Below are positions 1 to 56,345 of a DNA stretch of 64,000 nt, one piece after another. The stretch spans positions 90,267,501 to 90,331,500 of the forward strand of contig NC_080573.1 of assembly GCF_029962835.1 (NCBI RefSeq), written 5' to 3'. The notes beneath the pieces are model-generated. The model worked only from the letters and a program-made list of their open reading frames with translations, was not told the DNA's origin and did not search any database. A program made the translations under genes and the position numbers. The DNA comes from Magnolia sinica. Lineage: Eukaryota; Streptophyta; Magnoliopsida; Magnoliales; Magnoliaceae. The number at the start of each line of letters is the position of its first letter. The first letter of the stretch is position 1.

Positions 1-1875
1 ATGTTGAACACAACGGGCAAAACCAAGGATGACGCTAATGCATGCAGAGACTTGAAGCGGCTAGGAATTAAGAAGCATTTATGGTTAGAAAATACTGATG
101 GCAAAGTGATTCAAAAACGAGGTCCTTTTTTCCTTTGAAAAGAAGAAAAAAAACATTTCATCCAGACTTTACGTGAGCTTCGTGTTCCGGTTGGTTTTAG
201 TGGGAGTTGGAAGAACATCGTAAAGGAAGATAGTGTTGATTTAAAGGGAATGAAGTCTCATGATTACCACGTATTGATGCAACATCTGCTTCCAATTTTG
301 ATCCAACATGCATTCAAGGATAATAAGCCTATGCGCACTATAATTAGAAGCTTCAGTACATTTTTCAATGCCCTATGCTCGCAAATCATAGATATTGAAA
401 TGTTAATGGCTCTCGAGAAGGGCATGGCTAGGACTTTATGTGAGCTCGAGATTACATGTCCTCCTTCAATTTTTGTTGTGATGATGCATTTGCCTATCCA
501 CTTGGCTTATGAGGCTCGCGTATGTGGTCCTGTTTACTATCGATGGATGTATCCATTCGAAAGGTATAATATGATTTTAATATGAATAAACTGATCCAAC
601 ATCTGCAATTACATTTTCTAATGTGTTATTAACTCTTTTAGGTTCATGAAGACGTTTAAGGCATACGTCCGCAATATGACACGACCTGAAGGTTGTATAG
701 CAGAACGATACATTCAAGAGGAGACACTTATATACTGCAACCAGTATAGAGGGAAAAATAACACGAGCCTCTTGGAGAAATTGGAAAAACGGTTAGACGG
801 ATCAATTTCATTCATGCCGAAGTTATAAGATATTGTTGACGACTTCGATGTTAACGTGGTTGGCCCAGTTGGCCCTAGTCAAAGTGTCGTTTTAGAAGGT
901 ATTGAGTACGAACAGGCTCGCACCTGGGTACTGAAGAGTCATCCTAACTATGAGACATGGCAAGGGTACGAACTGGACTTAGCTTGTATGTATGTCTTTT
1001 TTTTTCTTTTTCTTTTTTTTTTTAAATTTCAAATTTGATTCAACAACATTGTAACAACATTTATGAAAAAAATTGTCAATTTTGTAACAACCTTCTTAAC
1101 TTGCAGGAGATATGCAAATTTCTTAAAGCAACGCAATATAGTTGTTGGGACTAGGACTAAGGTGGCGAGTGATGATGAGTTCATACCTTGGTTGAATAAA
1201 CAGCTAGACTTGAGTGAATCAAGTAATGAAGTCTTCAGAGATATAGTTAGGGGACCAAAGGCTTTTGCGATGCAGTACAATAAATATTGTATCAATGGTT
1301 TCCTCTTCATCACCAAGGAATACGAAGAGAATAAAATGAATCAGAATAGCGGTGTTAGCACAGAGAGTATGACCACCTTCCGATCTAGTGCTAAGGATAA
1401 GAATCCAGTGGATGAATCTGTACCTTATTACGGAGTCCTCCGCAAAATCATCCAATTGGAGTACCGAGAAGGGCACAAGCCAGTTCTACTAAAGTGCGAT
1501 TGGGTGAAGGTGACGCACCAATGTGTTTCTTTCGATGCGGTAGGGAATTTGAGACTGGTGAATTTGTCTAATCTTCTTAGTTCAGACCAAGTGGGTGATG
1601 AGCCATTTATTCTTGCGGAGCATGCCGTGCAAGTTTTTTATTCTAGAGATCCAAAAAATCCTAATTGGCATGTGGTCTTGGAGGTTCCAAGAAAGATTTT
1701 CGTTGAAGATGAGACAAGCATTTTATCAGAAACACGGGTTGTAACTGAGGCTGAAGTAGGACTTGATCTCACCGAAGTAGACATGGGTGGCGAGTTGTTA
1801 TTCAATGACAGTGAAGATATTTGTGTGGTTGTTGAAAAGAAAAAGAAAAGAAAGAGAGCAGGGAAAAAATCCTGA
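1..1875 (+). pseudogene. TNP2-like CACTA transposase, C-terminal half (DUF4218 + DUF4216), two stops
   Basis: The product would be the DDE-type transposase that cuts and moves CACTA elements. Three exons can be read in one frame: up to 563, 642-989 and 1107-1875, with GT/AG introns at 564-641 and 990-1106. The first two exons give the DUF4218 block (HDYHVLMQHLLPI, CGPVYYRWMYPFER, then KAYVRNMTRPEGCIAERY). The third gives DUF4216 (YYGVLRKIIQLEYREG, PFILAEHAVQVFYSRDP) and ends in a lysine-rich tail before TGA at 1873. In-frame stops at 136-138 and 826-828 interrupt an otherwise well-preserved frame, so this copy is a recent pseudogene unless read through. The catalytic Transposase_21 part lies upstream of the window. 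Confidence 0.85.
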
Positions 1876-2061: not shown

Positions 2062-4666
2062 ATGGATCTAGAGGCAGAGCCGCTCGGGGATGCATCCTAT
2101 AAAGATGCCAGGGGTAATAACATAGCTCTCGTTATCCGTTTAGATTTAACATTTCTTTTAAAATGATCTTTCACTTAGAGGCACTGTCATTGGGCGCAGA
2201 GTCGCTAGGGGATGCAGCCCTTGAAGATGCTAGAGGTAATAAGATAGCCTTTCGTAATTGTTTAGATTTAAAATTTCTTCTATATCGGTGATGATGAAAC
2301 ATGTGTGTAGCTATTTTTCTTTTTATGCCAGGGGTAATAACATAGCTCTCGTTAGCTGTTTAGATTTAACAATTCTTTTAAAATGATCTTTCACTCAGAG
2401 GCAGAGTCATTCGGCGCAGAGCCGCTAGGGGATGCAGCCCCTGCAGATGCAGACCCTGAAGATGCTAGAGGTAATAAGATAGTTTTCCTTAATTGTCTAG
2501 ATTTAACATATCTTTTATATTGGCGATGATGAAACATGTGTAGCTATTTTTCTTTTTATGTCAGGGGTAATAACATAGCTCTCGTTAGCTGTTTAGATTT
2601 AACGTTTCTTTTAAAATGATCTTTCACTCAGAGGCAGAGTCATTCGGCGCAGAGCCGCTAGGGGATGCAGCCCCTGCAGATGTAGACCCTAAAGATGTTA
2701 GAGGTAATAAGATAGCTTTCCTTAATTGTCTAGATTTAAAATATCTTTTATATTGGTGATGATGAAACATGTGTAGCTATTTTTCTTTTTATGCCAGGGG
2801 TAATAACATAGCTCTCGTTAGCTATTTAGATTTAACATTTCTTTTAAAATGATCTTTCACTCAGAGGCAGAGGCATTCGGCGCAGAGCCGCTAGGGGATG
2901 CAGCCCCTGCAGTTGCAGACCCTGAAGATGCTAGAGGTAATAAGATAACTTTCCTTAATTGTCTAGATTTAAAATATCTTTTATATTGGCGATGATGAAA
3001 CATGTGTAGCTATTTTTCTTTTTATGCAGGCAGGTCGTCATCTTCATCGTCTAAGCAGAGAGGTCCTAACCGAGGTTCAGAATTACATGAGAGGACTTCA
3101 GTGAAAAGGGTCATTGGGATTAATGAATTTGGGCAACCGAATATAGGGGATGCAAATCAGATCGCATTCAATTCAAGCATTGGTGTTCTCACCCGTGCAC
3201 ACATTCCGATCACCTACACAGACTTTCGGTTGGTGCCTCCACAATACATTCAGAGGGTCAGTGATATCCTGGCATGTAGTTATGAATTTCAGGATAACCA
3301 AGAAGCGTGGTCACCATACATTCGTGATCGCTGTAAGGCTGCTTGGAGAAATTTCAAGAACACTTTACATGCAAAGTATATTAAGGACAAGGATCCTGCA
3401 GTTGTGAAATCTTATCCTGCCCCTATTGGTGTCCCTATTGAGGATTGGATGATCTTCGTGGATTATTACAATACTGATAAATTCAAGGAATCAAGTGTAA
3501 GAAATGCATCCAATCGGGCCAAACAAGTTGGCCCTTCTACACTTGGTCGGCGTAGCATGGCTGCCACACGTCATGAGATGGTACATGTCCTAAAATAACA
3601 AAGTTCTACTTTATTTATAATAATTATTTCAATTTATTAGTCGTTTAATTCCATTATTTATGTGTTTTGGCATGGATGTTATGGGGAAAAGGCAATTGAG
3701 AGGAATCTTACTACTGATGCCGAGGTTGGTAGGGCTGAGGTGTACATCCGAGCCCATACAACAAAGGATAACAAAGTGCAGTTTCTAGAAACCTTTGTAA
3801 GTGCAACCCTCGTACATCCTTTCATTATCCATGTGAATTTTAAATGCTTCTTTCCCGCACTATAATTTTTCTTTTGGATGTTGTCATAGGAAAAAATAAA
3901 ATCGATTCAAAGTAGTAATCCCGCATCTCGGATGACCAGCGTAGATGATGCCCTTACACAGGTATATATGCATGTCCTTCAAATACTTGAGTTTATTTAG
4001 ACTTATGCATTCTCTGATAAATCTAATTGCAATTCTGTTTACAGTCAATTGGGAGTGATAGTAGAGGGCGCATGCGGGGGATAGGTGGAAATGTAGGCAA
4101 GATTACATTGAAGAAGACAATGCCTATTGTACATAAGCTCGGTGTGGTGTCGCGGGAACAAGATAATTTGGTAGATAAATTAGATGAAATGTAGAAAAGC
4201 CTAGGAGATCTCCACCAGAAGTTTCAATGCTTTGTAGATAAGCAAGGGGAACAAGGGGATGTGGCTCCACCGACAATTCCTCCATTTAAATCTAGTCATG
4301 CATCGTCGGTATGTATGCGTTTCTCTAATACTAATTTAAGCTTATGATTATATGCACTTCCATTTAAAAATACTAACGACATGTTATATGTGTACATGTA
4401 GCCTGATTTGGTAAATCTTGGCAAGAGATGCGATCTCTGTGATTGGAAGAAACGGGTAATGCTCGTGGTGAGGTGCATGCAGTGGATCCAAAAACCTGTG
4501 TCCATGGAGCAGAAATGGACGATGGAAATTTTAGTGTTGTCCTGATGGAGATTATAGCTCCGCAATCAGAGTTATGGAAGGAAGATGGTTATCATGATAC
4601 GCTTGGAGAGGTCGGTGTAGGAGGATTTGTCGTATGGCCCAAGCTATTTCTAACCATCTATCCGTG
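2062..4666 (+). pseudogene. Second CACTA gene (TNPA/Transposase_24-like) with mini-exon repeat N-terminus
   Basis: In En/Spm-type elements the second gene encodes a DNA-binding protein that recognises subterminal repeats and assists the transposase. I place the start at ATG 2062 (MDLEAEPLGD). Proposed exons: 2062-2113; mini-exons 2179-2235, 2399-2470, 2632-2703 and 2865-2936; then 3030 to about 3577. The last carries the conserved block (QIAFNSSIGVLTRAHIPI, then WSPYIRDRCKAAWRNFKNTL). Later pieces are about 3680-3795 (GRAEVYIRAHT), 3891-3960, about 4045-4313 (coiled-coil-like) and 4403 to about 4666 (GEVHAVDPKTCVHGAEM, the family's C-terminal block). The phase is 1 at every junction of the N-terminal exons, so the frame stays open into 3030. 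Breaks seen: TAG at 4192-4194 and an apparent frameshift near 4443. The 3' boundaries are approximate. Confidence 0.72.
2179..3029 (+). repeat. Tandem array of 233-bp exon-plus-intron units
   Basis: Units begin at 2178, 2398, 2631 and 2864 (spacing 220, 233 and 233). Each unit carries a 57- or 72-nt open segment preceded by CTTTCACT(C/T)AG and followed by GTAATAAG, so it looks like an exon between good splice sites. The translated unit is AESFGAEPLGDAAP followed by ADADPEDAR. A weaker internal duplication inside each unit leaves a second AG-GG-GTAATAAC motif, which would be a 2-nt remnant. The array sits at the 5' end of the second CACTA gene. Confidence 0.85.
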
Positions 4667-4929
4667 ATGTTTATGAATATTAGACATTACAATAACTAAC
4701 ACAATTAACTTTTGTTTTTAAACTATACAGTAACATAGACAGATGCATGCATATTATGGAATCGAATGAATTTAACACTCACTTCAGATTACACCCACAT
4801 ATATTGAATGGAATGGATTTAACACCCACATTTATACATTGATATATTTGGTTGGCATTTCAATTTTCAGCCTCCATTTGAGGAATTGAAAGATTTGTAA
4901 TAATTTTCACTTCTTTAAGTGTAATTTGC

Positions 4930-4974
<45 letters not shown>

Positions 4975-4994
4975 GTAGGGAATTTTCATCATCC
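4667..4994. other. Gap after the CACTA second gene; (GA)n microsatellite
   Basis: There is no coding signal. It contains a near-duplicate 30-bp stretch (atttaacac...cacccacat, about 4770-4835) and a GA microsatellite of about 38 bases at 4934-4971, directly upstream of an ATG in good context at 4995. This may be the 5' UTR of a captured gene fragment. Confidence 0.5.
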
Positions 4995-7957
4995 ATGGCA
5001 GCTGTTGCAGAGAATGCGCCACCAGCAGGTGTACAGAAATTACACTTCAAACAGAGTATCATCTGCTGTAAGTTACTTCAAGGGTAAATGGTTTTACTCT
5101 GGCTATCTTAAAATCATTTAAATAGCAAGATGCTGATGCTAGAGGTACTCTTATTTGCAGGATCTGGTTTTGAGTGTTGCAGGATCATCTGCTGAAGTTG
5201 CACTGGCTGGTTCTCACCCCAAAGGTACTATTACATTTTTTTGATGCCTCGATTGCTAAGTACACATTAGGGACTGATCTAGTTTCCGTTGTTGCAGGTT
5301 GGTGTAGGTGTCACTTCAGGGGGAGTTAACCAGATAAGTTTATATTTTTCTTTTTGGTTGCATTTGAGTGTCTAATTACCTGCTTGCCTTTTTTCTTTTC
5401 TTCTTTCTTTCTTTCTTTTAATTGTAATTCTCTTTAAATGTTTTAGATCAATAAGGGACATCCCTGTATTCAAGGAACGGTTTCAACATGACAATGAAGG
5501 TAAACTTAACTCTAAATATCACCTTTATAACCAGAATTTGTGCTCTTTATTGTCTGTTTTTGAATTATAATTTTTTATATAATTGACACCTTTTATCTCG
5601 AAATATGATCTATGAAGTAAGATATGAACGCAATCCTTATCAAAATCCACACCTAGGGGAGCGCAAATAAGAGGATTGATCTTAATAGTATGGTCGTCAT
5701 GCACATAGACAGAAAATGCTTGCAAAGAATGTTTATGAGTACTCGGTAATTTCGGAGTCCTTCTTGGTTACGGTTTGGGCTGAAAGTACGAGTGTTGGAG
5801 CCGACGCTTTCGGAGTCTGAACTCATTCTTTTAGATTGTGTTTGTGTCCAGCAGATTACTTTTAGATTGTGTTTGTGTTTGTGTTTGTGTCTAGCAGATT
5901 ACTTTCTTATTGTTTTTAGCAAAGATCTACTGTTGTGGGCCTCTCTCTCATTTGATGATTGCAATCTATACCATGTGCAATTCAAATGGTAGTGGGCTAT
6001 CACAGAATGTGTTGCATGAGGTTCCTAGAACTACGGTGACCTTTTGTCCAAGGCAGGTAATGTCTATCTATGCCATCCAATTCTCAGATGAGGGGAGTGG
6101 CACATCATGAATTTTCTGTAGCATGGAGCAGTTTCCTAAGCTTATCACTGGGAGGGAGCTGGTTGATCTCCCCTTCCTGAGATTTGCTTTAGAGTTCAGA
6201 CAAGGTTGGTATGTGGAACACAAGTGCAAGATCCAAGTTGTCCACCAATTGAGTACCAGCTTGCAAATGTCCTATCCTAACATTCATGCTGCTCTATTCT
6301 TGTGGACCATAACATTTGAAATAGGGAAATTTGGCAACCTGTTTTTTTTTTTTTTCTGCCCATCCAGTTCTCTGTATCTTGAACTCATGTCAATTTGCCA
6401 TATGTGGTTGCATGAAGGAGCTTGGGTTGTACACACATTTGGGATTTGAAACACCTTGTTAGCAAAAATACTAGTTATTAACCTTCATTGAGCTATCTAT
6501 TTTTTGCCGTCTCTCTTCATCACTAGAGTAATTCTACCCTTTTTTGAGTATTGAAATCCTTGTCATGCTATTTGGGTTCCCTTTTTGCAGGTGCAACCTG
6601 GTCTTTCTGCACTTGAAGATGCAATGGAGGTAGGATATGAAGATTTCAAGGTAATCAACCCAGTTTCTCAAAAATCTACAATTTTTTAATCGTAAGATTG
6701 ATGTTAGCAGAATGTTTTCCTTCAAACAAGACCAGTGTAGTTTGCTTGAGAGTTTTCAACAGTGAGAGTTTAGTCCCCATTGTGTAGTCTGCTTGATCCT
6801 TGTATCTGGCTGATTTTTGTTTTTATATCCTAAAATGATGCTAAACAATGGATGGACGGTGTGGATAGGACACATATATCATGGTGGCCACTCAAAGCTG
6901 CTTACTGTTCTAGTTGGAGATGCGCCCATCTGTTTTGTTAGCTTATTTTAGGACATGGGATAAAAAATGAGCAGAATCTAATATTCAAGTGGGCTGAAAA
7001 ATGTGAGGATTGAACGTTTGCTGATGAAATATTCATGAGGCTGCAGAAGTTTTGACTTAGGGTAATATTTGTGTTCTCATTTCATCTCAATGGAATTGAG
7101 GTTATGAACTGTATGTATGGCATTTAAACATCACTGTCGACGAATCCTTACTCTTGCTCGAGGTAGTCTCTCGGGAGTTTGGTTTAAGATTACTTAATCA
7201 CTTCAGCTTAAAAAGTAGAAACCAAGATAAGCAGTCATGTTTGAAACAAGAGTCATCACTCATGTAAATATGCATTTCTTTTAAGACAGTGATTTGATTT
7301 TACCGAAGACAATTGAGTTACATAGGTATTTAATGTATAAGTGGCTATAGGATGAAGGAATGGCAAAATCAGTGTCGGCTTTGAGCAGAATCCTTACCTA
7401 TTTAGATAAGACATTTATATTGCATTTTGTGAATTGTCATCCCTTTCATGAGAAAAGAAAATGCATGAAAGCCCTCCTCAAAAGAAAAAAAAAAAAAAAA
7501 CTGTATTCAATACCTTTAAAAGCCATGACCAATGAAATGTGATTCTTGAATCTTGATACTTTGAGTTAAAAAAATCAAGCTTTTCTAATTATTAGCTTCC
7601 TTTTTTTGGTTGATCACATTTTGATGCAACTTGGTTATCAAGGCAATGGTTAATCACATTTTGATGCAGTTTGGCTATCTGGAGCATAAATGTGAGCACG
7701 CATGGAATCAATTTCAAAAATCTTAATATCTTTTGTTTTGTTTTTTTTTTTTTTTTTTCATATTGGCCATCTCTAGACTATTTTTTTATATGTATAGTAA
7801 CTCAGTTACTGAAAAATGTAGATCTTTAGCATTGATTAGAGAAGTGCTTATATTTTGGTTTAGTGCAGCAAAGATCATGGCTTGTCTACTCACATTAAAG
7901 GAGGAAAAGATGCAAGAAAATCTAAAGCCGTTGTAGGGTTTTTACAGGTGAAATCTA
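4995..7957 (+). other. Exon-like islands of unrecognised origin inside the CACTA
   Basis: Several short open stretches have splice-like flanks. ATG at 4995 (MAAVAENAPPAGVQK) runs to a GTAAGT at 5068. 5161-5224 is preceded by ttatttgcag and followed by GTAC (DLVLSVAGSSAEVAL). A stretch starts after gttgttgcag at 5298. One lies after gttttag near 5446 (IRDIPVFKERFQHDNE). 6592-6651 follows tttttgcag (VQPGLSALEDAMEVG). About 7870-7957 is followed by GTGAAA (HIKGGKDARKSKAVVG). Reading phases do not chain neatly and I do not recognise the parent genes. Given the VPS2-like exon further on, captured host exons are the likeliest explanation. A short tandem duplication (ttagattgtgtttgtgt...cagattac) lies at 5832-5902. 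Confidence 0.35.
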
Positions 7958-8424
7958 AACAACAGGAGCAAACCTCAACTTCCTTTAAAATGTCTTATCA
8001 TGTTCTTTAAATATTCTAAGTTGTCTTTTCAAGGGACTGAGGAGCATTTTAGATAATTTTCTGATAGTGGTCATGGACCCCACGGATGCTGTAATGATGG
8101 TTGAAATGAAAAACTGTCAACAGTCAGATGGTACAAACAGCTTCAACCAACCAGGGCTCAGGATCTGAACAAAATTGCATATATTGGGTCCCACCAACTG
8201 AACGGTTTGGATTTATTACTTGTAAATGCACAACGGCTGGGAGTGCATTCTGCCAGTGATTATATCAAATAACACCAGCTTTGGATCGTGTACGGAAGCT
8301 GATTGTGTGTAGGTTCTCTTGAACCAGGTCCCACAATCTTCTCCTGCGTAGGTTGGGAGGTCCGATTGAAGCAGGTCCCACCTCTCGTAGGGACAGGATT
8401 GTTGAGTGACCCAACCTGACTCTG

Positions 8425-8925
8425 TGGGACCCACTGATGTCTGTGTTTTATCCATGCCATTATTCGTTTTGCCAGCTCATTTTACGGCATGCATCGAAAG
8501 ATGAGGCAGATCCAAAGCTCAAGCGGACCACACCCCAGAAACAGTGGGGATCGAATTCCTACCGTTGAAACATTCTTGTGGGCCACAAGTTTTGGATAAG
8601 CTTAATTGCCTGCTTTGTTTGGAATAGGGTGGTACATTGAAAGGATATACCCACCATCATTTGAAACTATTGAGAAGAACACACATGCGTTATATCTAAA
8701 CCGTTCATTTATTTTGTAACCTCATTATATGGTATGGGCTTAAAAATGAGGCAGATCCAAAACTTATGTGGCCCCAAAGAAGTTTTCAATGGTAAGTATT
8801 CAATCCCCGTTGCTTTCTATAGTGGGGTCCACTTGAGCTTTAGATCTACCTGATTTTTTGGCCCATGCTCTAAAATGATCTCGAAAAATGGGTGGATGGT
8901 GTGGATAGTCCACACATCATGATGG
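8425..8925. repeat. Fold-back (inverted) repeat of a dispersed family
   Basis: About 150 bp at 8425-8575 is the degenerate reverse complement of about 8770-8925. The left arm reads gatgaggcagatccaaagct and its partner agctttagatctacctgatt. Related single arms occur near 6830-6900, 20405-20545, 34620-34740 and 58070-58200. This looks like a high-copy non-coding fold-back or MITE-type repeat. The surrounding 8000-9110 holds no gene, only this repeat and fragments such as ccggccaaacaggccc. Confidence 0.55.
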
Positions 8926-9161
8926 GACCTACACAACTTGCTAACATTGAGTGAAATTGGCACGGGACCCAATACGATTCCATCTAACCTACTTCCAAGC
9001 TATTCCACTCTTCCCAAACATAGAGTGGAATTGGCACGTGACCAGATGCAATTCCATCCCACCTAAGCCCGTGTAATCCGGCCGGCCAAACAGGCCCCTA
9101 GGGTAGTAGAATGTTTCTTGTACATTCTCTTATGACCTTCCAAATACATTGGTGTTTTCAG

Positions 9162-9233
9162 CGAATGGCACTAGCAAAGCAGGCCAAAGTGATGCAAGAA
9201 TTCCAGAAGCAGTCAGCACAAATGGATATGACG
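9162..9233 (+). pseudogene. Isolated exon of a VPS2.2/VPS2.3-like ESCRT-III gene (captured fragment)
   Basis: This 72-nt open segment follows gtgttttcag and ends at a GTAATT donor. It encodes RMALAKQA followed by KVMQEFQKQSAQMDMT. That closely resembles the segment KQMAPAKQAKVIKEFQKQSA of plant VPS2.2/VPS2.3 (CHMP2-type) ESCRT-III subunits as I remember it. ESCRT-III proteins polymerise on endosomal membranes to bud intralumenal vesicles. No neighbouring VPS2 exons are recognisable on either side (MSEAIDETLD should follow but does not within range). It therefore looks like a single exon with flanking intron, carried inside the CACTA. It is intact in frame. VPS2 identity is from memory of the family, not a search. 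Confidence 0.72.
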
Positions 9234-10070
9234 GTAATTTTTGTTGATACTAATTCCTACTCGAGCTTTCAATACTCATTATATTTATTAGCTTACCCTG
9301 CATTTCGATGCACGTGCAAATTGAATTGTGAATATTTCATTTAGTACTCACAGCGAGGAAATTGCCCTCAAATATAGAACATGGTACATCCCACATGGAT
9401 ACAACATACACGTCATTTGCACGATGAGTGGAATGATAAAATAGAAAGTATGCATATTGACACAGGTATAAAAAATCTCAATGGATGAAGTGTCCATAAG
9501 CTTTTGACGCTTTATAATATATACGCATTATTCTGGAGACATTTTGTGGAAATATAGAAATATGAGAAATATGAAAAGAAACAGATATGTGGGTTATCAG
9601 AATCAAAGTGTCCATCAGGTTGTCGAAGTTTAGTAGAAATATTTAAGAAATGAAAATGCATGTATTGTGACACATCACAGCCTAATTGTCCCTGAGGTTT
9701 TTGTGATGTCCATGTGGTCATCATGTCAATGCTCCAGATCACTTAACCATCTGTCCCACTTGCATAGATCATTAGAGTTGAAGTGCCTGGAAGGTTCTTG
9801 CAGTATGCATGGTGGGTCCATCAGATCAACTACACGTCCCTAAAATTATGGGCCCCCCACTTGTACTCTTTGTATCAGAATTGAAGCATATGTGAGTTTT
9901 TTGTGGCATCCATGTTAGGGCCCATCAGTTGAATGTGGACTGCATTTCTAGATTTAAAGCCAAAGACTTCAAGAAAACCCCCACAGGTCTGGTAGCAAAA
10001 AAAACAAAGACTTAAATGATATGTGGTTTCTTTTTTTTAAAGCATATATCCAATCCAAATATTTGGAATT
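9234..10070. other. No gene seen; AT-rich CACTA interior
   Basis: I see no conserved coding stretch. It holds short imperfect repeats (tagaaatatg...agaaatgaaa near 9550-9655) and non-coding filler of the gggcccatcag type. Confidence 0.4.
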
Positions 10071-10306
10071 TGGATGATATATTTGATTTTGATTTCTTCC
10101 TTTTCTATTATTGTGTAGACTTGCCTTCTCCAATAGGTTAGTTCGTTCAGAGCTTTGGAGAAATGGGTATATTTAGTTTTGGATGTGTGTGTTGATTAAT
10201 TCACATCTATAACTAGATATGCCAATTTTTCCGAAGGAATGAACTAACTCATTTGAGTAGGAAAAGTCTACACAAAAGAAGAAATCAAAATCATATATAT
10301 CATCCA
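10071..10306. repeat. Long imperfect hairpin (arms about 105 nt, short loop)
   Basis: 10071-10185 and 10200-10306 are near reverse complements. ggatgatatatttgatttt on the left pairs with aaaatcatatatatcatcc on the right, gttagttcgttc pairs with gaatgaactaac, and the innermost ggatgtg pairs with cacatct. The loop is about 15 nt around ttgattaatt. It directly abuts the CACTA subterminal array. It could be a nested MITE or a source of double-stranded RNA. Confidence 0.75.
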
Positions 10307-10337
10307 AAATATTTATTTTTTTTAAATTTATGAGAAT

Positions 10338-10707
10338 CACCGACGGATTTTAGCCGCCGATAACACCGACGGATGATAGCCGCCGACAACGCCGATGGAT
10401 TCTAGCCGCCGACAACCTCGACGGATTATAACCGCCGATAACGCCGACAGATTATAACCGCCGATAACGCCGACGGATTATAGCCGCCGATAACGCTGAC
10501 GGATGTTAGCCGCCGATAACGCCGACGGATTATAGCCGCCAACAACACCGATGGATTCTAGTCGCCGACAACGCCGACGGTTTTTATCCGTCGGCGAGCA
10601 TTGCCGACGCACCCTTTACCGACGGACCATGCGACGGCTAAAAGCAGTCGGGGAAGGTCATTGCCGACGGCTTTTAGCTGTCGGCGTTGCCCTGTTTTTT
10701 GGTAGTG
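10338..10707. repeat. CACTA subterminal repeat array and right terminus
   Basis: About nine to ten copies of a 26-bp unit (consensus ACGCCGACGGATTATAGCC + GCCGATA) run from 10338 to about 10590. Inverted copies of the core (ccgtcggc, gccgacgg) then continue to the terminal CTGTTTTTTGGTAGTG at 10692-10707. In CACTA elements such arrays are the binding sites for the element's second protein. The terminal TAGTG and the GCCGACGG core are both seen directly. Confidence 0.88.
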
Positions 10708-12140
10708 GTTGAACCCCTAGGCTGCACTTGAACAAACTGAAAAGTGTGCATATGATCGCTGGCTAAGCATTGCCTATATTTCCTTCACAAAGCAAAGCAT
10801 GCGTTATTAACGGATCAAACAAAGATAAAAAAAATCAAGAATAAATCGTCAATCTAGCAGTTGGAAAAAAAGATCCCATACTCAAAACACACAGTCATAA
10901 TGTTTTTAACTACTACTATATCTCTAAACAGTCACGAAAAAGGCCAGCCCACTACCCAAAACAAAATCTCTCCACAAAGCATCTATAAAATTCACAAACA
11001 GAAACTGAATGCCATGCTGCATCCCTACTTTCAGTTCCAATATATTAGGGCTAATGGAGGTGGTGGTGATTATGAAAACCAAAGGATAGAATTGAACTCT
11101 TATTGTTACTTGACAGTTCTATACCATTTGAATGCTCTACTTTGGCATAGGCCTAAGGAACAAAATTTACTACAGAACTCTGCAACCATTCAAAATATTC
11201 TAAGCTATGCATATTACCATGTAGTGTAGACCACTCTACAATTCTCCTTCTCTATAAAACTGTATATTATTTCAGATGTCTCTGCAAACACACTGCTAAG
11301 TCTTAAATGAGCCAAAGAAATGGTTGAATCCCTGCACTAGTTTTCACACTAGTGACATAACTCTAAATGGCACCAATTGAGTGGTCCTAAACTCCCTCTT
11401 AATGACATGGAAGAGGAGTTTCACATTCATCCATCTCAAATGAGGCACTTAAATACAGCCATCAGAACCATCTTTTTGCAGGATGAACCATATCTCCAAG
11501 AAAACAGTTATTAAAAAACCTAACCATCTGATTTGGACTGAACAGAGCTCACTCTATATTGGCCCTATATCAACTGTCATGAGTTTTGGTGGTGAGTGAT
11601 ACCGTATGTCAAAACCAATTTTTAATCCCTTTGCCTACATGTAGGGAAACTGATGCAAGTTGTCTAATTCACGGCAAAGCTCACTCAACATAACTCACAG
11701 GGATTAATTTAAGGAAAAGAATTTAGGCAGCAAAGCCGGGCAATTCATATCAACTGATGCCTAAGTAGATAAGAATCTGATGCTTCTAGCCAAGCTTGCA
11801 GCTTTCCTTCTTCCAGTTGAGAGAGAGAGGAATCGATTGAAATCTAAAATCAAAAATAAAATGGATTTCAAGGCATAGATAGTGAAATCAAAATCGATTC
11901 CGATTTTGAATTTCAGTTTTTTTTTTTTTTTTATAATCACAACACCTAAGCAGGAAAGCAAATAGATGCTTGAAGCCCTCTAGGCACTGTAACATAAATG
12001 CTTACTATCAAAAGCATAAACGGTCTATGTGATAGATTGTAAAAATTATTATGATCAACAAAACAACATTTTGACCCAACCCAAGCTATTACAAATTAAA
12101 GAATAATAGTATGATTAGAATAAAGCCAGTCTTTTTTCAC
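10708..12140. other. No confident gene; AT-rich segment between CACTA ends
   Basis: The one long open stretch (10861-11229, plus strand) has low-complexity, AT-driven composition and no recognisable domain. On the minus strand, about 11757-11830 reads LEEGKLQAWLEASDSYLL, which could be another captured exon but is not recognised. The rest shows nothing. Confidence 0.35.
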
Positions 12141-24003: not shown

Positions 24004-25929
24004 ATGGGAAACACTAAGTATGATATTGAAAAGTACTCAGGTAAAAATAATTTTGAGTTATGAAAGGTTAAGATGATTAGCCTATTAACTAAGCAAGGTG
24101 AAGATGGGGCTCTCGAGGAGGGACGATCGTCTATGAGTGGCCATTATTGAAATACTCTTGATAAGAAGGTCAAATCCTCTATCCGATTGTGTCTCATGGA
24201 TATGGTTCTCTACAATGTTTTGAGGGAGAAAACCGCAACGAGTTTGTGGGCGAAGTTAGAGGACGTTTATGCGAAAAAGTCCCTTAAGAATCGCCTACAC
24301 TTAAAGTTGTAGTTGTTCAACTCTAGGATAACAGAGGGTGAAGATGTGAAAGCCCACATTAGTAATTTTAATAAGTTGATTTGCAAGTTGATAGACATGG
24401 AGGAAGTGGTCAAAAATGAAGATCAGGCATGTATTTTGTTGAATTCTCTGTCAGCGTCGTATGAATCATTCAAGGACTCATTATGCACCGATAAATTATC
24501 CTTTAGTGTGGACACCATTATCTCATTCATTCAGGGGAAGGCTATGAGAAAAATAAACAATAATGTATGGACATCTTCTGATGCACTGCTTACGAGAGGC
24601 AGAAATACTGAGCGAGATACATGATCTTCTCGGTCGAGATTCAAATCTAAGGACAAGGGCAATGGTAAGTTAAAAGTGCTGGAACTATGGGATGACAAGA
24701 CATATGAAGAATGATTTTGCAAATCTTAAATCGAAGAGAGAAGACTTTGATGCTTCTTATAGGGAGGCCAATGCTGACACGTCTGATGAATGTACGAATG
24801 AATGTGAAGGTGATGTCTTGTCTGTGTCTATGATCGGACACTTATACGATGATCGTAGGGACGAGTGGATTCTAGACATAGGCGCATCTTATCACATGAC
24901 TCCTCATCAGAGTTGGTTTGCTAGCTATAGAGAGTGCGATGGTGGACAGATGTTTATGGGCAATGATAATGCCTATAATGTTGTGGTTGTTGGTATGCTG
25001 CGCATCAAGATATTTGATGGGACAACATACCTTGATTGAGGTGAGGCACGTTCCCAATATGAAGAAGAGACTAATTTCTCTTGGTGCACTTGAGGTAAAA
25101 AGGTGTAAATTCACCGGATTTGATGGTGCCCTTAAAGTATCTAAGGGGGCACTTGTAATCATGAAAGCGCAGAGGCTCGAAAACATTTATAAGTTGATCG
25201 CGAGCACTTCAATAGGTGGAGCTGCAATGGTTGTAGCAAATTCCACTACTATTCATATGTGGCATGCTCGTTTGGGCCACATGAGTGAGCAGGGCATGCA
25301 GGCAGAGACAGAAACACCGACAAAGGTACAGGAGTAGGTGGAGCAGGTATCTGTGAGAAGATACCCAACGCATGATTGTGAGTTACCGGTAAGATTTAAG
25401 GACAACTCTAATATCACATACGCCCTCATTACAGATGATGGAGGACTCGTTTACTATTCAGGAGGCTCTTGATGAGCCTGATGTAGAGAAGTGGAAGGCG
25501 GCTATGGATGATGAGATGGACTTGTTGCACAAAAACAACACATGGGAGCTGATGGAGCTTCCAAATAGCTGAAAAGTGATCGGATGTAAGTGGTTATTCA
25601 AAAGAAAACATGATAAATACAAAGCAAAGCTGCTAGCGAAGGATTATGCTTAAAGAGAATGAATTAACTTCACAGATATATTCGTGTCGGTGGTTAAGCA
25701 GGTGTCTATCAGATTCGTGTTAGCGTTGGTTGTCCAATATGATCTCGAGCTAGAACAGATGGATGTCAAGGCTGTATTCCTACATGAGGAGCTGGAAGAG
25801 CAGATTTACATGAAGCAACTAGATGGCTATGAAGTTAAAGGGGTAGAGAACAAAATTTGCAGGTTAATGAGGTTATTGTGCGGCCTAAAACAGTCGCCTA
25901 GGCAATGGTATAAAAAATTGATTCTTTAA
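24004..25929 (+). pseudogene. Copia gag-pol remnant
   Basis: Recognisable parts: a copia gag (about 24004-24680; KLEDVYAKKSLKNRLHLKL, SALYESF-like SASYESFKDSL); protease (about 24865-25035; WILDIGASYHMTPH, with the copia-type D-G-A/S-S-H pattern); the pre-integrase histidine region (about 25060-25300; MWHARLGHMSEQGM); and reverse transcriptase (about 25440-25929; GCKWLFKRKHD, VKAVFLHEELEEQIYMKQ, GLKQSPRQW). The order protease, pre-integrase, RT is diagnostic of copia. It is broken throughout. Confidence 0.85.
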
Positions 25930-28541: not shown

Positions 28542-30296
28542 ATGGCGAGAACAAGAAAAAATGCCTAGGCCCTTTCTGAGGAGGTTCCCGTCACCCGTCC
28601 ATCAGTGATAAATGGTGCCCCAGATCAGCAGACGCGACAGGAGAATCGCTGGGGCTTCACAGCCCGCCAGGCGACCTCTGGTTTAACCAGGTGCACCCGA
28701 CGAAACCGAGGGAACGAGCGACTGGAAAGAGAAGTTCAAGAGATCAGAACTAACATGAATTACATGAGACAAATGTTGGAGCAAATGCATCCCCAGCGGA
28801 CACAGTGCCCAACTTGGGGGATGGTCGATCGAATGTTGCTCGACAATTCGCCGACCCTCAGCTATCCACCCCACAAGCTGCTCCTCAGCCGAGTCAACAT
28901 CAAGACCCAGCCAAGCCTGCTCCTTCTCATGTTTTTGCGGAATTCCCACTGCCAGCTTCTAATCTACGACATGAAATAGACCGGAGGAGGAGTAATAGGC
29001 CTCCAGTCGAGGGAACGGCTGACAGTGAAGAACCATGGAAGACAGAGATCCAAAATCTAAAGAATCAGATTGCTGACCTGAAGCAAAATCGTTCGGCCAA
29101 TCAGGCAGGACCGGAGGAGAAGGAATCCCCGTTCGTGGATGAGATAATGCAAGCACATCTATCAGAACGATTTCGCCTTCCTCAGATCGTGCCCTACACC
29201 AGCAAGGCCGATCCAACAGAGTATATATAGTCCTTTGGGACTTATATGGAATTGCATGATGCCTCAGATGCCATGATGTGCCGAGCCTTCTCCCTTACTT
29301 TGGCCGATGTCGCTCGGCTTTGGTTCAAGCAACTGAAGCCGAGGTCCATTAGCTCATTCACCGAGCTTAGTGACGCTTTCGTCGCCAACTTTATCGGGAG
29401 ATAGAAAAGACTCAAGGCATCAGTGCATCTGAATAACATAGTCCAGAAGGAGGGAGAGATCCTCAAGGACTACATCAAGCACTTCAATCTCGAAGCATTA
29501 TAAGTTCGAAAGCATTTGGACGAAACATGTAAGGGGTAAGAGACAAACTGTTTCTCTTATCCCTGGATAAGAATCCTCCATCCACCTTGGCCAAATTCAT
29601 GGCCCGGGTAAAGAAATACACCAATGTCGAGGAAACTCGGATCTTGCAAGAAGCGGCTTAGAATAGAAATACATCGGCAAAAAAGTTGACCAAAAAGGAA
29701 GTCGACTTAGCCAGCAGTAAGAAACGAAAGGATGATCGGCCTCGAGATGAACGTAGGTCAGGTAAGTAACTTGACAACAAGTTCTCGACGTACACCCCGC
29801 TCAATAAGCCATAAGAGCAGGTCCTGATGGAAATCACGGACAAAGGATTCGTCAACTAGCCGGACGAACTCCGTGGTAACCCGAACCGACAAAGCAAAAA
29901 CAAATACTGCTATTTCCATCATGATCACGGGCACAATACAAGTGATAGTTATAATCTGAAGTAGGAAATCGAGAGGCTCATCCGAGAGGGCCACCTTGGG
30001 AAGCACGTGGACTAAGGAGCTAGGACTACGAAAGAGCGTCCGGGTGATAATCGACCCACAAAAGAAATTTGAATCATTGTCGATGGCCACTAGGGCGGAA
30101 GAGACTCAAATAATGCTCGAAAAAACCATATAAGAAGCATTAGTTGGCCTAAGTCTGAGATTAAGGTTCTGGCTCGGCCTTCGAAGGAGAGGAAGCTCGA
30201 AAAATATAGCATGGTGTTCATTGAAGAGGATGCTCGAGGCATCCACCATCCACAGGATGATGCTTTGGTCATTACCATCACCATAGCAAATCGTAG
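28542..30296 (+). pseudogene. Tat-type gag remnant
   Basis: Starts MARTRKNA at 28542. The retrotransposon gag core is at about 29230-29500 (FSLTLADVARLWFKQL, FTELSDAFVANFIG, GEILKDYIKHFN), followed by a Lys/Asp-rich linker and the zinc-like HHDHGH region. This gag layout is typical of Tat/Retand relatives. It is broken. Confidence 0.82.
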
Positions 30297-30736: not shown

Positions 30737-33700
30737 TGTAAGACCCGACCCGAGCTCTCGCGTGTGCATGTGTGTGTAGGAATGCATTTCATTTCACATA
30801 GTCCTGCGGTCTTACCGGTCGAATCCCGATGACCTGCAACCCTTGGTTAGTATTTGCGGTCATTCTTAAGTCCGGTCACATTGACCCGACTCGGATCGGC
30901 TCGAGACCTATGCCATCTTATTCACATCGTTGTTGCGGTTTCAACGACGCTTCTTGTATGTCCATCCAATATATAGATCAAAAGTTGTGTACATTTCATT
31001 ATATGACCATTGATCATGTGACCCACTTAGGTGGAATGCATGTGGACCACCATCACCCTTGGCATGAGTTTCAAGGTACACTACCCACACACTACACAAA
31101 GATCCATAACTAACACCACCAACCACAAACACCACCAAGAGACTTAGTCTAACCTACAACTTTGTAAACTCCTACCTATGGTAATGATTATTTTTCTTAC
31201 AAAACCATCATGGTCTCTCTCTCACACTCCTTATCTCTCCCTCCTTCTCATTTCTTCCCTCCATAGCTAGCAACCTTCCTCCAAAAATCCTCAAATTCTC
31301 CAGCCCCCAAAACCCCTCAAAACCAACCCTTGAAAACACATCTCAACCATCAAAATCTTATCCTTGCTCCAAGATCTTCATGATATAGAAGTTTGAGAGA
31401 TGGATTCTTATGGGTGACTATCCTTTTTGTTGATCTTATTTCAATTCTTTGATTTCTTCATTTCTTCATAGTTGGATCATATGGGACCCACCAATCCATG
31501 GTGGGGATCCCATTTGATCCCATGGATGTGGCCCTTTAGCCCATCCTACACGCATGTCATGATCCATGATGGGGACATTCTCCATAGACCCCATCATGAT
31601 GTATTTAATGATCCACTCCATCTCAAGGTCATCTAGACCTTAAAGATCATGTTGGGATGACATCTTAACCATCCATAGCAATTATAGATCATGCATGTAG
31701 TGATTTTATGTTGCATGTACAATCAATGTAGTTGTATGGGTATGATTCATTCTTAGGAGAGACCATTCGTGGCAGGGCCCTACCCCATCGCTGGATCCTG
31801 TTTCTTCTCCATCTTTTCTTTCCTATCTTTATAGTAAATCTGATGTATGTGTGGCTCACCAGATATGTCATGCAACCAGGCCCAAGTGATTGGACATCCA
31901 AGCCCACCTTGTTGCCTCATATTGTTGGCATGTTTTGAACAACTTTGGGCTTGATTTTATGTATGATCTTGGAAGGAGCTTGGGTTTGAGAGTTGTATGA
32001 CCCATCTAGGTAGACCCCACCTTAAGGAAATGGTGATTTATTTCCCTTTTATTTACCTTTTGGGTGGTTTGGACAGCAACATGTTGCTGTCCAAATCTGT
32101 CTGGATAGATTTTTGGGCCACATTGGGGCCTGATTTCTGGTAATTTGGTGGGAAGACTGATGAAAATTAACATATGATTCTTGTAACTTCATGACCCACC
32201 TACATTCATATCAAATTTCAGCCCCAATGGACACCATTTGAGCATCCAAAAGAGTGGGCCAACATAGTGGACTACCAGAAATTTCTGTTGTCCAGTCCAG
32301 CAGTATAGTCCCTTAAAAACTAAATTTTAAAAATACTTTCTCAGATGGTGGGCTATATTTTTGGGTCCCACCTTGTTTTAGGCTTGATTAGGGACCTTAG
32401 GCCCAAATTTTAGGAATTTTGGAGGCCCCGGACCCACCCCATGTGGTCCCAAACATGGAGACAATTATAATTCCAGCAACATTTCACCAAGGACAGTTTG
32501 TAATCCCGAATTTAATTAAAATAGTTATGGGCATCCAAAAATTATGAAAATTTACAGAGAAGTGTTCCGCTCATGTTAAGACTCATCTACCAAATTTTAG
32601 GGCTAACGGACCCCTGTGTACACCATGGAAAGGGCTGGACCAGCCCACCACTTTGGGATGTCCAGATTAGCCAGATTTTCTGGATAGTTTGTTTTATCTA
32701 AATTAATTAAAATACTTTTACTAATTTAAAAATTATGAAATTTTGTGGAGGTATATACCTCCCATGGAAGTACTAACCTGCAAAATTTCAGGGCCAGCGA
32801 TCCTCTTTACCATCTGTGGTGCGGCGTGGAGTGGCCCACTAGACTGGGACATTCAGGCTGAGGCGTCCAGCCTTGGTTGGCCATTCAAGCCACTTTGTGG
32901 GCCAACTTTAATGTATTTTATATTCCATCATTCATTAATGTGGGGTCCATAGGATACTTGATCATCCTCTCCTTCATTAGCATTCAATTGGGCTCCTTTA
33001 GATGAGTTTTTGGGCCATATACCCAGGCCCATAGAACTACCTATGCATGAAACTTTCTAGATAGGCCCATAAATGTTATTTTTGGGGCAGCATGGTGCAT
33101 TAGATTTGAGGATGATTTGATCAGTTACCTTGCCTTTTTCCTTCAATATTTTTGGGTGTAATTAGTGCTCATCTAAGGCCCATCTAAGTTGAGTTTTATT
33201 TGAACATTTTTTGTGGTTAATTGACTAGTTCCTTATGTAAGACCCGTGTCCTAATCCGTACTGTTCCGTTAGCTTCCGCGATCCTTCCGGTCAAATTTCG
33301 ACAACCTTCGCACCGTATTCGGTGTTTGCGCACGATCATAAGCCAGGTCCCGCGCACCGACGTCGGCTTGGTCTGAAAGTTATATCATAGCGACCGCGTC
33401 GTCGCCGCGGTTCCAACGCCGTGACTTGCGCACCGAACCGATACCCAGGCTAGAAGATGCCGATCAGCGTTTATTCCGAAGAAACACCGCGCGTTGCGGA
33501 TTTCGAGGGAATCTCTACTATTAGTCCCATCAATCAACCATTAAAGCATCCCATACCTCAAGTACATCAACCCATCTCCACCTTTTACAAAAGTCCACCA
33601 TTCTTTCCACCTCACCACTCCTCTTTTCCAAATTTCAACAACAACCATACACCTTTTCACAATTTTCAACCCAAACCATCCCCCATCACTCCATCACCCA

Positions 33701-36060: not shown

Positions 36061-39000
36061 ATCCCGACATGATTTATGACAGTCGTGCCTTGGGAGCAAT
36101 GTTGGTTTGACGTCCACATTGCAAGTACGATGTTGATTAAATGTCCGCATTATGCCTTTCCCTAGGGCCCATTGGCGGGCCCATGCGTGTTATGTGCAGG
36201 TCGTCTAGGCCCACCTTCGTTATGCATGTCATCCATCCTATATAGCATGTTTAAATTCCATAAATTCATGATCATATGCATCATATGTATGCTTGATATG
36301 AGAGATGACTGATCATAGCATAAGTCTTTGGGTAGATTGTTTAGGGACTCCCGCATAGGGGGTGTTGCCCTACATGAGCGCACGATACGCGCAGGATTGC
36401 TGCATGACTGAATAGTGTGATTCATGCATTCGCATTGTGTGATATGGTTACTCTACGCCCTAGCGACATCAGGGCCATAGCCTCCACAGACGCATCGTGG
36501 TTGGCAGGATTGGATACCGAAAATACTGTTCTACATGGGGTGCGATAGATATCCCTGGGTGAAAGTCCCTAAACCCTTATGGTACCAGGAGGTTGCTCCA
36601 ACGTCTAGACCGAGTGGGTGCATGAGCGCTGGGTGCCGATTACCAGACGGTTGCGCTTTCCACTGTGTCGTGGTCGGTTGGAAGGGGGTGCGGCCTTACC
36701 CGCCCGAGAGTAGGGGGCAATGCTAGGCTGAGTTTGACCAGCTCGAGGAATGGGTCCGCTATTGACGAGCCGAGCCGATATTGGCAGGCGGATAGTGAGG
36801 TCTTTTCCACTCACCTTATTGCGCGCGATGGGGCGGCAATCTGGCTTGGAGTGTACTAGACCCCGGTGATATTCCAGATTTGAGCCGTATTGACATGTGG
36901 ACTTAGATGAGGATTTGTATGCTTGACTTGCATTCCGCATTGCATGGCCTTGGTATGGCCGACATCATTCTTTACACCGCATGGCCTTGGTACGGCTAAT
37001 GGGATTCTTAGCATTCATCAGCATGTTCCGCATTACTCTGATACTGCATGACTACATTATCACCTTGAGCATACACTTTCACCACCCTCTAAGCTTTCTA
37101 TAAGCTTATGCACGACCGTTGCGTGCAGGTGACGTTGGATCGCAGCAACGCTGAGGCTTGGACGCGTGGCTGATCTTCTTTTGGAGTTTTGGTCTATATT
37201 CATTGTATTTCCCTTATGCTCATTGTACTTGTAAAGTTTTTGATTATAGTGGAAATGTGATGGAGTTTTTGGTTGTTGTTTGTGGGTTATGCCTTTGGTT
37301 ATGCTTATTACGAATCAAACTGACGTACAAAATCCTCCTTGTAGCATCCCAGGATCGGAACCTGGCGAATGGGCGCTGGGAGCCGAGAATGGGGTTCTAC
37401 GGAGGCTGTCGGCGCCGGATTCGGCGATCGGGAATTTTGTGAGCCCGGTCTCCGAGTTTGGGGCGTGACACCTTAGGCCTTTTTTACTAGAACCTTTTTA
37501 AGTAGGCCCTCTGACCTTTGGGCCTATACTCTTCTTTCTATTGTGATGGGTTTATGGGCTATAAAATGCAAGTAGTTGGGCCCTTAGTTTCCCACCAAAT
37601 TAACCCTATACTTGGGCTAAGATGTGAGGCCCAACTCACTTATATCAAGTGTGAAATTGCCCACATAGTTGAACTACTAGGCTGCCCTTGAAGTCCACCA
37701 CAATGTGGGTTCATGACCTTTATGGTTGGGCCCAAACCTTACTTGAGGGCCCACCATATTGCCTATAAGTTGGGCTTTGTGTATAGCCCATTAGGCCATG
37801 TACTGCTTGGGCCTTAGACCTTACTTATATGTGTAGCAGGCTACCTTTTAGGACCCAGTTGAGGTTGAATGTCCTCCTTAGTGGCCCTAAGGTAAGCCCA
37901 TAGGGCCCTTATAAGTAGTTGAAGGCCCAACTTAGACCTTAAGTAGGACCATTTCCTCATTGGGATTATGACTCTCTTAGCTTGTGGGTTACCCCAAAGT
38001 ATTGGTCCCCCACTAGAGGACTTCACTTCTCCTTAGAGTATCGACTTTCTCCCTCCTTGAGAAAGAGAAATACATTCCACAGGTAGCGCACTTACTTCAT
38101 TGTGACCCATATGCATCATTTGTATGAATTGAATGCATTGTATAGTGGTCTTTAAGGGATGAAGTTTCTCCCCTCATGCACAATGAGTGCCTGAAGCTTA
38201 TACATGATTTGTATGTATGACTCATGCATTGGCATCGCGTTTCATGATGATACCACCCTTGCTTTATCAGGGCCTTGCCTCTATAGGGATATTCATGGAT
38301 GACTGGATGTGTGGACACCGAAAATATTACTTGAGTATACTGGGTTCATAGGATGCCCATGGGTGAAATTCTCAAAACTTCCATAGTACTAAGGATTTGC
38401 TCCAGCGCAGTGACCGAGTGGAAACTGTGAGCGCATGAGAGCGTTATACCGTTAGGCCGCGACTCCCACTATCATGTAGTCGGTTGGATAGGGGTGTGGC
38501 CTTACTCGCCTGATGTAAGTGGGCATTACTAGGCTGAGTTTGAATAGCTCGTGAAATGGGTCCGCTACCGTCAGGCCTCACTGGTGATTGGCTGTCCACA
38601 GGCAGGTAGTGAGGTCTCTTACGCTCGTTTGACTGTGCGGGTCTGTAGAGCAGTAGTCATCCAGCAGTGTAATGGACCCTGGTGTTTTCTTATGATTGGA
38701 AATATACTTGATATGTGGATTGGTTATGAGCACTGGCATTATTTCGCATCGCATTCGCATCGGTTATATAAGCTCCTTCATGCATTGCCTTGGTAAGGCG
38801 CTTAGTACTCATTGCATCTTATTCATGATAAGCCTTGGAAAGGCTAGTAATATTGTCATGGAGCATGTTTCCCTTCATGTACATCCTACTAATTTTCTAT
38901 GCACCATTATCACACACTGTCACCACCCTCTAAGCTTCTATAAGCTTATGCATGATTGATGCGTGCAGGAGATCCTAGGCAGGCGTCGTAGTGGTAGAGC

Positions 39001-39343
39001 GTGGAGTAGAGTTGAGCTTGAGGACTCCAGTGTTGCTGATCTTTCTCTCCTTTTTCTATCATCTTATATATGTCCTTTTGGACCTTATGGATACTTGTAA
39101 AAGTTTAAATTCTTAGTGGATTTTATGATGTGAGCCTTTGTTATTCTCAGATGTACTTGCTGTGATCTTGGGTATGCTCGTATTAGTAATGATTATACTG
39201 TTATGGAAATCCTCCTTATAGGATCCCAGGATCGGAACCTGCTTTAGGAGCTGAGAATGGGGTACTACGGAGGCTGTTGCGGTCAGAACCGGTTATCAGG
39301 TTCCATGTGAATCTGGTTACTGAGTCTGGGGTGTGACAGGAGT

Positions 39344-44275: not shown

Positions 44276-44404
44276 TTGCTTGTATCGGCTTCTCTTGTGA
44301 TTGATGATTGAGATATATATATATATATATATATATGATGATGATGTTTATGCATCCTTGTTACTCCAGTTTTGTCAATTTCAAGGACAAAATTTCATTG
44401 TTGA

Positions 44405-50419: not shown

Positions 50420-50464
<45 letters not shown>

Positions 50465-50847
50465 GACTTTGGATGAGAGTGGAATGGGTAGGATATGGGT
50501 TGTTTGTACTTGTGATAGGATGTGTACTTGACCTGTACATTGATTGACTAATTTGACATTTGGTAGAGATTCTTTTGGAATTTGCAATGCGCGGCATTTT
50601 TCTCGAAATGAACGTGGGCCCGCAACTCCTGGTCTGGGTATCGCATCGACGCGCGAGACGTGGCGTTGGAACCGTGGCGACGGCGCAGTCGTTAGGATAC
50701 AAGTTTCGAGTCGAGCCGACTCAGATCTTTAAGATGCGACTTATGGTCACACGTGCAAACGCTAATTACTAGTCGTGGGTTACCGGAATTCGACCGAGAG
50801 GACGTGGGAGTCTACGGAACGGTACGGTCTAAGATACGGGCCTTACA
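48755..50847 (-). repeat. Inner part of the minus-strand chromovirus 3' LTR
   Basis: Resumes the LTR interrupted at 30736 and ends TGTAAGGCCCG (minus strand) at 50847. Its counterpart is within 56140-59795. The whole left LTR (about 2.5 kb) is shorter than the right one (4.1 kb). It contains a GA microsatellite at 50421-50462 and a run of 21 G at 50251-50271. Confidence 0.85.
50251..50271. repeat. Poly-G tract (21 G)
   Basis: An uninterrupted run of G, with a shorter one (14 G) at the matching LTR position 59224-59237. It is about 580 bases from the LTR start on the minus strand and C-rich on that strand. Confidence 0.9.
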
Positions 50848-50989
50848 GCTCTCCCCACATAATAAAAATTTCATCCTCGAAATTTATACTATCGTGCAAC
50901 TAGGCATAACTTATAAGGAAAAAGGAAACATAGCATCATCGTATAAAATGAGAAATAACATACAAGATACAATATATAATCAATCATCA

Positions 50990-56169: not shown

Positions 56170-56345
56170 CCTTACTAAGGCTATGCGATGCAAGGCATGA
56201 ATGCTATCGGACATATCAAGACCATGCGATGCAAGGCATGAAAGCTATCGGCCATATTAAGACCATGCGATGCAAGGCGTGAATACTATCGGCCATATCA
56301 AGGCCATGCGATGCAAGGCGTGAATGGTGTCGGCCATACTAAGAC
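56170..56345. repeat. Tandem array of 45-bp units in a chromovirus LTR
   Basis: About four copies of gatgcaaggc(a/g)tgaatgctatcggccatat-type units. Similar units are at 48810-48930 in the sister LTR, and inverted, more diverged relatives (catggccttggtatggcc) lie at 36940-37000 in the solo LTR. Confidence 0.8.

Follow-up and report, generated by a model that had tools for sequence, protein, structure and literature searches.

The 64,000-nucleotide stretch of DNA analysed here (the window) opens within a transposon whose second gene begins with a run of short, closely related exons. This raises the question of how such a run arose, and whether the protein tail that it would encode was put to use. 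We consider it probable that a phase-symmetric mini-exon was tandemly duplicated and that its copies were tolerated in the acidic tail of a tnpA-type gene belonging to a decayed CACTA (En/Spm) element.

A reading made from the letters alone (the sequence-only reading) had assigned the run to a CACTA second gene, and the surroundings bear this out: DUF4218 and DUF4216 lie upstream, Transposase_24 lies downstream, and a 26-bp repeat array with a CACTA-type end follows 7 kb on. Gene 1 is represented by its 3' part (1..1875, plus strand like all gene features below), which is truncated by the window start and encodes the C-terminal region of a tnpD/Tnp2-type transposase, with Pfam matches to DUF4218 in 139-582 (E 4.3e-21) and to DUF4216 in 1039-1872 (E 4.7e-15). 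Its Transposase_21 domain would sit upstream of the window start. In gene 2, exon 6 (3030..3580) would encode a Ser-rich linker, a conserved region and the start of Transposase_24, and exon 7 (3692..3796, with the weak acceptor GGGGAAAAG) the remainder of that domain; exons 8 (3890..3961), 9 (4045..4308) and 10 (4402..4680, the C-terminal part) complete the joined gene model. The boundaries of exons 7-10 were picked by eye for frame and domain fit. The joined model matched Transposase_24 (PF03004) with 60.9 bits against a cutoff of 28.7 and covered profile positions 4-134 of 138, compared with 28.2 bits (just below the cutoff) and 35.7 bits (profile 4-52) for the unspliced frames. Because the boundaries had been fitted to the domain, this gain is no independent proof of the exon 7-10 junctions, and it is uninformative on the mini-exons. 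When compared with solved structures, exon 6 returned one chance-level match (E 0.74). Since Transposase_24 is the mark by which tnpA candidates are picked in the available text of a lettuce study (PMC8195511), gene 2 is a tnpA-type CACTA second gene; the domain is also present in ORF 2 of Chenopodium elements, as stated in the accessible portion of their description (PMC8978399). This copy is broken, with in-frame stops near 136 and 826 in the part of gene 1 seen, a further stop near 4192 in exon 9, and an apparent frameshift in exon 10, where the tail runs on in another frame.

The 26-bp repeats (10340..10590, plus strand, consensus CCGACGGATTATAGCCGCCGATAACG) comprise 9.3 copies at 10340-10580, with self-matches to 10590, and are read as subterminal repeats about 100 bp inside the probable element end. 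This end, a probable 3' terminal inverted repeat CACTACCAAAAAACAGGGC on the minus strand (10689..10707), adjoins the array and was picked for that position from nine matches with at most two mismatches to a CACTA end sequence, 2.26 such matches being expected; its own sequence occurs once in the 64-kb window. It is the one probable CACTA end in the window, the 5' end lying outside, and it and the genes 7 kb away are presumably parts of one element. Maize TNPA binds subterminal repeats (PMC2613891, available text) and acts on the element promoter as both a repressor and a reactivator (PMC1636069, likewise); by analogy with maize TNPA, the gene 2 product would bind the ends of the element. Directly before the 26-bp repeats lies a self-complementary stretch of about 240 bp (10069-10308), 74% identical to its own reverse complement, which looks like an inserted MITE-type palindrome.

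The run itself consists of exon 1 and four mini-exons of 57, 72, 72 and 72 nt, at coordinates that agree almost to the base with those proposed from the letters. Exon 1 (2062..2113, 52 nt) has an ATG start, ends in phase 1 and is followed by intron A (2114..2178, 65 nt), which runs from GTAATAAC to TTCACTTAG. Mini-exon 2 (2179..2235, 57 nt, EALSLGAESLGDAALEDAR) and mini-exons 3 (2399..2470), 4 (2632..2703) and 5 (2865..2936), each of 72 nt, are all phase 1-1, and all four start with AG and end with G. The expected uniformity of splice sites was largely found: the donor GTAATAAG follows all four mini-exons and the acceptor TTCACTCAG precedes three of them, the first mini-exon having the acceptor TTCACTTAG and exon 1 the donor GTAATAAC. 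Start-to-start spacings are 220, 233 and 233 bp, the last two being identical as noted before. Furthermore, Tandem Repeats Finder reported a period of 233 with 3.5 copies (score 1455), and a separate repeat search returned spacings of 233, 233 and of 220, 233, 233. The tandem repeat at the front of gene 2 is beyond chance. G+C content is 0.56-0.62 in the five exons compared with 0.26-0.30 in the five introns, and a higher G+C content in exons than in introns is favourable for splicing in plants. From the sequence alone, we infer that the mini-exons would be spliced as drawn.

Exon 1 shares much of its structure with the mini-exons. Self-BLASTN aligned 2074-2157 with 2196-2279 (82% over 85 nt), a half-unit match that involves exon 1. 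The part of exon 1 that corresponds to the mini-exons (2072-2113, 42 nt) follows an AG at 2070-2071, begins with AGGC, ends in G and is phase 1-1 like them. Judged by their sequences, exon 1 and the mini-exons are homologous. The resulting length series of 42, 57 and 72 nt, overlooked in the earlier reading, advances in steps of 15 nt (5 aa), and the exons split into 15-nt blocks with the peptides EAESF GAEPL GDAAP ADADP EDAR. Within mini-exon 3, identity at a lag of 15 nt was 0.58; among 20,000 codon shuffles, a fraction of 5e-5 attained this value.

Also overlooked was the composite nature of the internal introns. All three consist of an intron B (94-96 nt), a relic GG and an intron A (65 nt). 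The first (2236..2398, 163 nt) holds intron B at 2236-2331, GG at 2332-2333 and intron A at 2334-2398; in the second (2471..2631, 161 nt), intron B extends to 2564, GG occupies 2565-2566 and intron A starts at 2567; in the third (2704..2864, 161 nt), the corresponding positions are 2797, 2798-2799 and 2800. The last intron of the array (2937..3029, 93 nt, GTAATAAG to TTTTTATGCAG) is an intron B. Part A measures 65 nt in all four cases and part B 96, 94, 94 and 93 nt, and both parts could be aligned in all six pairs of units. At each of the three internal introns, TG[CT]CAG, GG and GTAATAAC follow one another directly. The terminal intron B ends in TTTTTATGCAG and exon 1 in GATGCCAGGG, and the internal junctions preceding GTAATAAC read TTTTTATGCCAGGG in two cases and TTTTTATGTCAGGG in one. 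The junctions match both the end of intron B and the end of exon 1, and they show that the unit was formed by fusion of the last 3' splice site to this exon end, at a short sequence common to both, ATGC(C)AGG.

The acceptor of the relic, TTTTTCTTTTTATG[CT]CAG, is rich in pyrimidines and a possible competitor of the one at the mini-exon. Inclusion of a relic GG adds 2 nt, and a stop arose in all seven combinations tried with all four mini-exons included; therefore, correct splicing must bypass the relics. Recursive splicing was rejected on the same two counts, as the GG between acceptor and donor would be left in the transcript.

In terms of frame, the mini-exons could be included or skipped in any number, as their phase had suggested: all 16 combinations lead in frame into the exon at 3030, and all are free of stops from 2062 to 3579. 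In all four mini-exons, a single frame of the three is open, namely the one that exon 1 together with the exon at 3030 requires; in the 42-nt part of exon 1, two frames are open. Because the mini-exon copies have a single origin, the agreement between splice sites and frame amounts to about one observation, not four. Furthermore, the open frames carry little weight because just 7 of the 216 possible single-base changes in mini-exon 3 create a stop. The composition of the encoded tail is acidic and rich in Ala, Asp, Glu and Pro, as had been described, the full 108 aa containing 28 A, 16 D, 16 E and 10 P compared with 5 R and 2 K. If expressed, the protein would likely begin with an acidic tail whose length, from 17 to 108 aa, would be set by the number of units spliced in, with the Ser-rich linker and then the conserved domain predicted to follow. 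A Pfam search of this acidic N-terminus gave no family above its cutoff, the best being DUF6743 (15.2 bits against 27).

The units are not of equal age. Pairwise sums gave 7-9 mutual differences in 230-231 aligned positions among the three youngest units, compared with 17-20 in 215-216 between the mini-exon 2 unit and the three younger ones, and the last duplication steps are younger than the first. The sequence-only reading had the array growing recently by unequal exchange. Tandem duplication with younger later steps stands, but slippage or microhomology end-joining may also account for it and the word recent carries no date; unequal exchange is a plausible mechanism.

Comparison of the three youngest units revealed no difference between exon and intron divergence. 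The pairs 3-4, 3-5 and 4-5 have, respectively, 3, 2 and 5 differences in the 72 sites of the mini-exon, 2, 2 and 2 in the 65 sites of intron part A, and 4, 3 and 2 in the 93-94 sites of intron part B; variable columns number 5 of 72 in exons vs 10 of 158 in introns (p=1.0). All five exon changes among mini-exons 3-5 are non-synonymous. The chance of this outcome without selection is about 0.22, and the result therefore speaks against strong purifying selection but not for its opposite; five changes are too few to decide between neutrality and selection that was weak or positive. Between mini-exons 2 and 3, 4 codons of 19 differ non-synonymously and none synonymously, and between exon 1 and mini-exon 2 the counts are 5 non-synonymous and 3 synonymous codons of 14. 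The latter comparison, with 3 of 8 changed codons synonymous, may be compatible with earlier constraint. Likewise, the 15-nt length difference between mini-exons 2 and 3, set beside indels of 2 and 1 nt in the intron parts, agrees with an older frame constraint, yet it is one single exon event. A count over all four units found 14 of 57 columns variable in the exons vs 20 of 158 in the introns (p 0.055, with the greater variability in exons). It was set aside because, in mini-exon 2, the aligner had placed the 15-nt gap at the end, and pairwise counts with one 15-nt gap were used in its place.

These observations suggest the following history. First, exon 1 would have been copied together with its donor and the first part of its intron, and this copy would have become an internal mini-exon of phase 1-1. 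Its coding part would then have lengthened in 15-nt (5-aa) steps through 42, 57 and 72 nt. Next, intron A, mini-exon and intron B, together about 233 bp, would have been duplicated in tandem via the joining of TTTTTATGCAG to GATGCCAGGG at the shared motif, with further duplication by unequal exchange or slippage. Each added 72-nt unit would extend an acidic, probably disordered tail by 24 aa and leave the conserved domain in frame, and such growth would have been tolerated because the exon is phase-symmetric and the frame of the conserved domain is kept. This order of events, and the neutrality of the changes, are what the single sequence at hand suggests. Our best reading is that the expansion was tolerated, not selected.

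The opposite possibility, that the family keeps the mini-exons to tune the tail length of its tnpA-type protein through splicing, appears quite unlikely. The 16 in-frame isoforms, the uniform splice sites and the size of the mini-exon 2/3 difference (15 nt, against 2 and 1 nt for the intron-part indels) all speak for a selectable tail. Moreover, CACTA transcripts are known to undergo alternative splicing in maize and soybean (PMC1636069, PMC2613891); in the available text of these reports, however, it splits tnpA from tnpD without varying the number of repeats. The present copy is broken, its exon changes are no rarer than its intron changes, and all five alter the protein. The working expandable tail that had been proposed from the letters is thus not upheld for this copy, which is broken and whose youngest exon copies are without detectable purifying selection.

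Damage to both genes would also suit a non-coding intronic minisatellite: a 233-bp repeat would have expanded while the gene was dying or once it was dead, with the extra exons as passengers, and splicing would never have involved more than exon 1, exon 6 and perhaps one mini-exon. The like divergence of exons and introns in the three youngest units and the competing relic splice pair in each of the three internal introns fit this explanation. We nevertheless judge it unlikely. The four mini-exons are open in the correct frame, although little loss would be expected at 3-4% divergence with so few stop-making changes, and the 57-nt and 42-nt members are in frame despite their older divergence. 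It is very unlikely, in turn, that exon 1 was itself an internal array unit, spliced via the AG at 2070-2071 from a transcript initiated at gene 1, with the ATG at 2062 incidental. The mini-exon-like features of 2072-2113 (42 nt, AGGC after AG, G end, phase 1-1) argue for this, as do the 186 nt that separate the gene 1 stop from the ATG and the contiguous tnpD-tnpA transcription described for lettuce in the accessible text (PMC8195511), but the AG is preceded by GAAGATGGATCTAG, which has no polypyrimidine tract, and the in-frame ATG at 2062 provides a simple start.

Tolerated duplication of a phase-symmetric mini-exon, the reading that we prefer, invokes a known process, tandem exon duplication, in an unusual place, where it is well preserved. 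Tandem duplication of a symmetric-phase exon with its flanking intron is a general mechanism, and it keeps the frame at any copy number. The array follows this pattern, the same phase 1-1 exon having been copied with flanking intron (four copies here). It differs in that the host of the array is a transposon gene, the exon is made of 15-nt repeats, and every junction carries a 2-nt relic with a splice pair.

Among related elements, those of maize (En/Spm, tnpA), Antirrhinum (Tam1, tnp1), soybean (Tgmt, mosaic transcript) and lettuce (tnpA candidates) likewise have a multi-exon second gene beside a Tnp2-type gene, and maize TNPA, Tam1 TNP1 and the Tgmt mosaic product show little mutual sequence likeness (PMC2613891, available text). 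In the portions of these sources available, the alternative splicing described joins distant exons, and a tandem array of duplicated mini-exons is not among the descriptions. Among the matches listed from the open-licence literature, in titles and abstract openings, no tandem mini-exon array in a CACTA gene was found, which is a weak absence. Schistosome micro-exon genes (MEGs) resemble the array by description, as they contain runs of short symmetric exons that are removable with the frame intact (PMC8293314, in its available part); this is an analogy, and unlike the array, MEGs are host genes with proteins exposed to the mammalian immune system and exons mostly <=36 bp. Jozin CACTA elements of Chenopodium carry internal tandem arrays near their 3' end (PMC8978399), and a review table links a Chenopodium satellite to the Tnp2 transposase part of Jozin (PMC9659126), as far as the accessible text of both goes. 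The Jozin arrays lie near the 3' end of the element, whereas the present array contains in-frame coding exons.

Self-BLASTN detected no second copy of the array in the 64-kb window, the array matching itself alone. In viral contigs, the array protein gave three pattern stretches, none of which was confirmed, and the exact 23-base array pattern had no occurrence; in bacterial and archaeal contigs, none of 38 pattern stretches was confirmed (records near the source genome were possibly omitted from these searches). The lack of the array in bacterial and archaeal contigs is expected for a plant element, and it is the families found here that point to a plant.

The locus thus offers a readable case of exon-by-exon growth of a transposon gene, with nested levels of 15 nt, 42/57/72 nt and 233 bp, and with a junction that reveals the splice site and the exon end between which the fusion took place. 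In this copy, the array is a fossil without detectable selection among its youngest units. It would be a long shot to propose that the N-terminal acidic domain of the tnpA-type protein varies by whole exons across the family, with intact members carrying different numbers of mini-exons and splicing them in variable number, to give a graded series of tails on a protein that would act at the element ends. The composite introns with their relics would then serve as a frame check, since relic use ends in a stop. If intact relatives do use the array, the tail length of a transposon protein would be set by array size and splicing, which would bear on the fast change of tnpA-type proteins, highly divergent between elements. 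That a longer acidic tail alters a TNPA-like action on the promoter is speculation.

Several other features were observed in the window. Between gene 2 and the probable 3' end, possible exons were recognized by eye at about 4995-5070, 6591-6650 and 7864-7947, and an exon-like piece at 9162-9233 reads RMALAKQAKVMQEFQKQSAQMDMT, which we take to resemble CHMP2/VPS2. This 24-aa piece had no match among solved structures at E<=1, 12 motifs from other parts of CHMP2/VPS2 were absent from the 64-kb window, and Pfam found no domain above cutoff in the three forward frames of 4801-10802. If the piece is CHMP2/VPS2-like, the element has taken up fragments of host genes, a frequent event in CACTA elements according to the available text of the lettuce study (PMC8195511).

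Two LTR-retrotransposon bodies, 72-75% alike and in opposite orientation, occupy 41178-44277 and 50978-54087. A Pfam scan of 10 of the 38 listed reading frames identified an RVP_2 protease in 40988-41578 and SH3_Tf2-1 in 43706-44077 and 51064-51711. Long direct duplicates pair 30737-33235 with 44415-46896 (91% over 2.5 kb), 37471-39338 with 46892-48754 (89% over 1.9 kb) and 49511-50847 with 58497-59795 (84% over 1.4 kb), and are probably further transposon copies around the retrotransposons. Closely related 41-bp minisatellites of 3.9 and 4.2 copies lie at 48788-48947 and 56183-56354, in two related repeats. A gag_pre-integrs domain at 24900-25334 (34.1 bits against a cutoff of 28.4) marks a retrotransposon fragment, presumably of Copia type, and a weak Med9-like match at 28754-29227 (19 bits, below the cutoff of 26.9) is possibly a host gene fragment.
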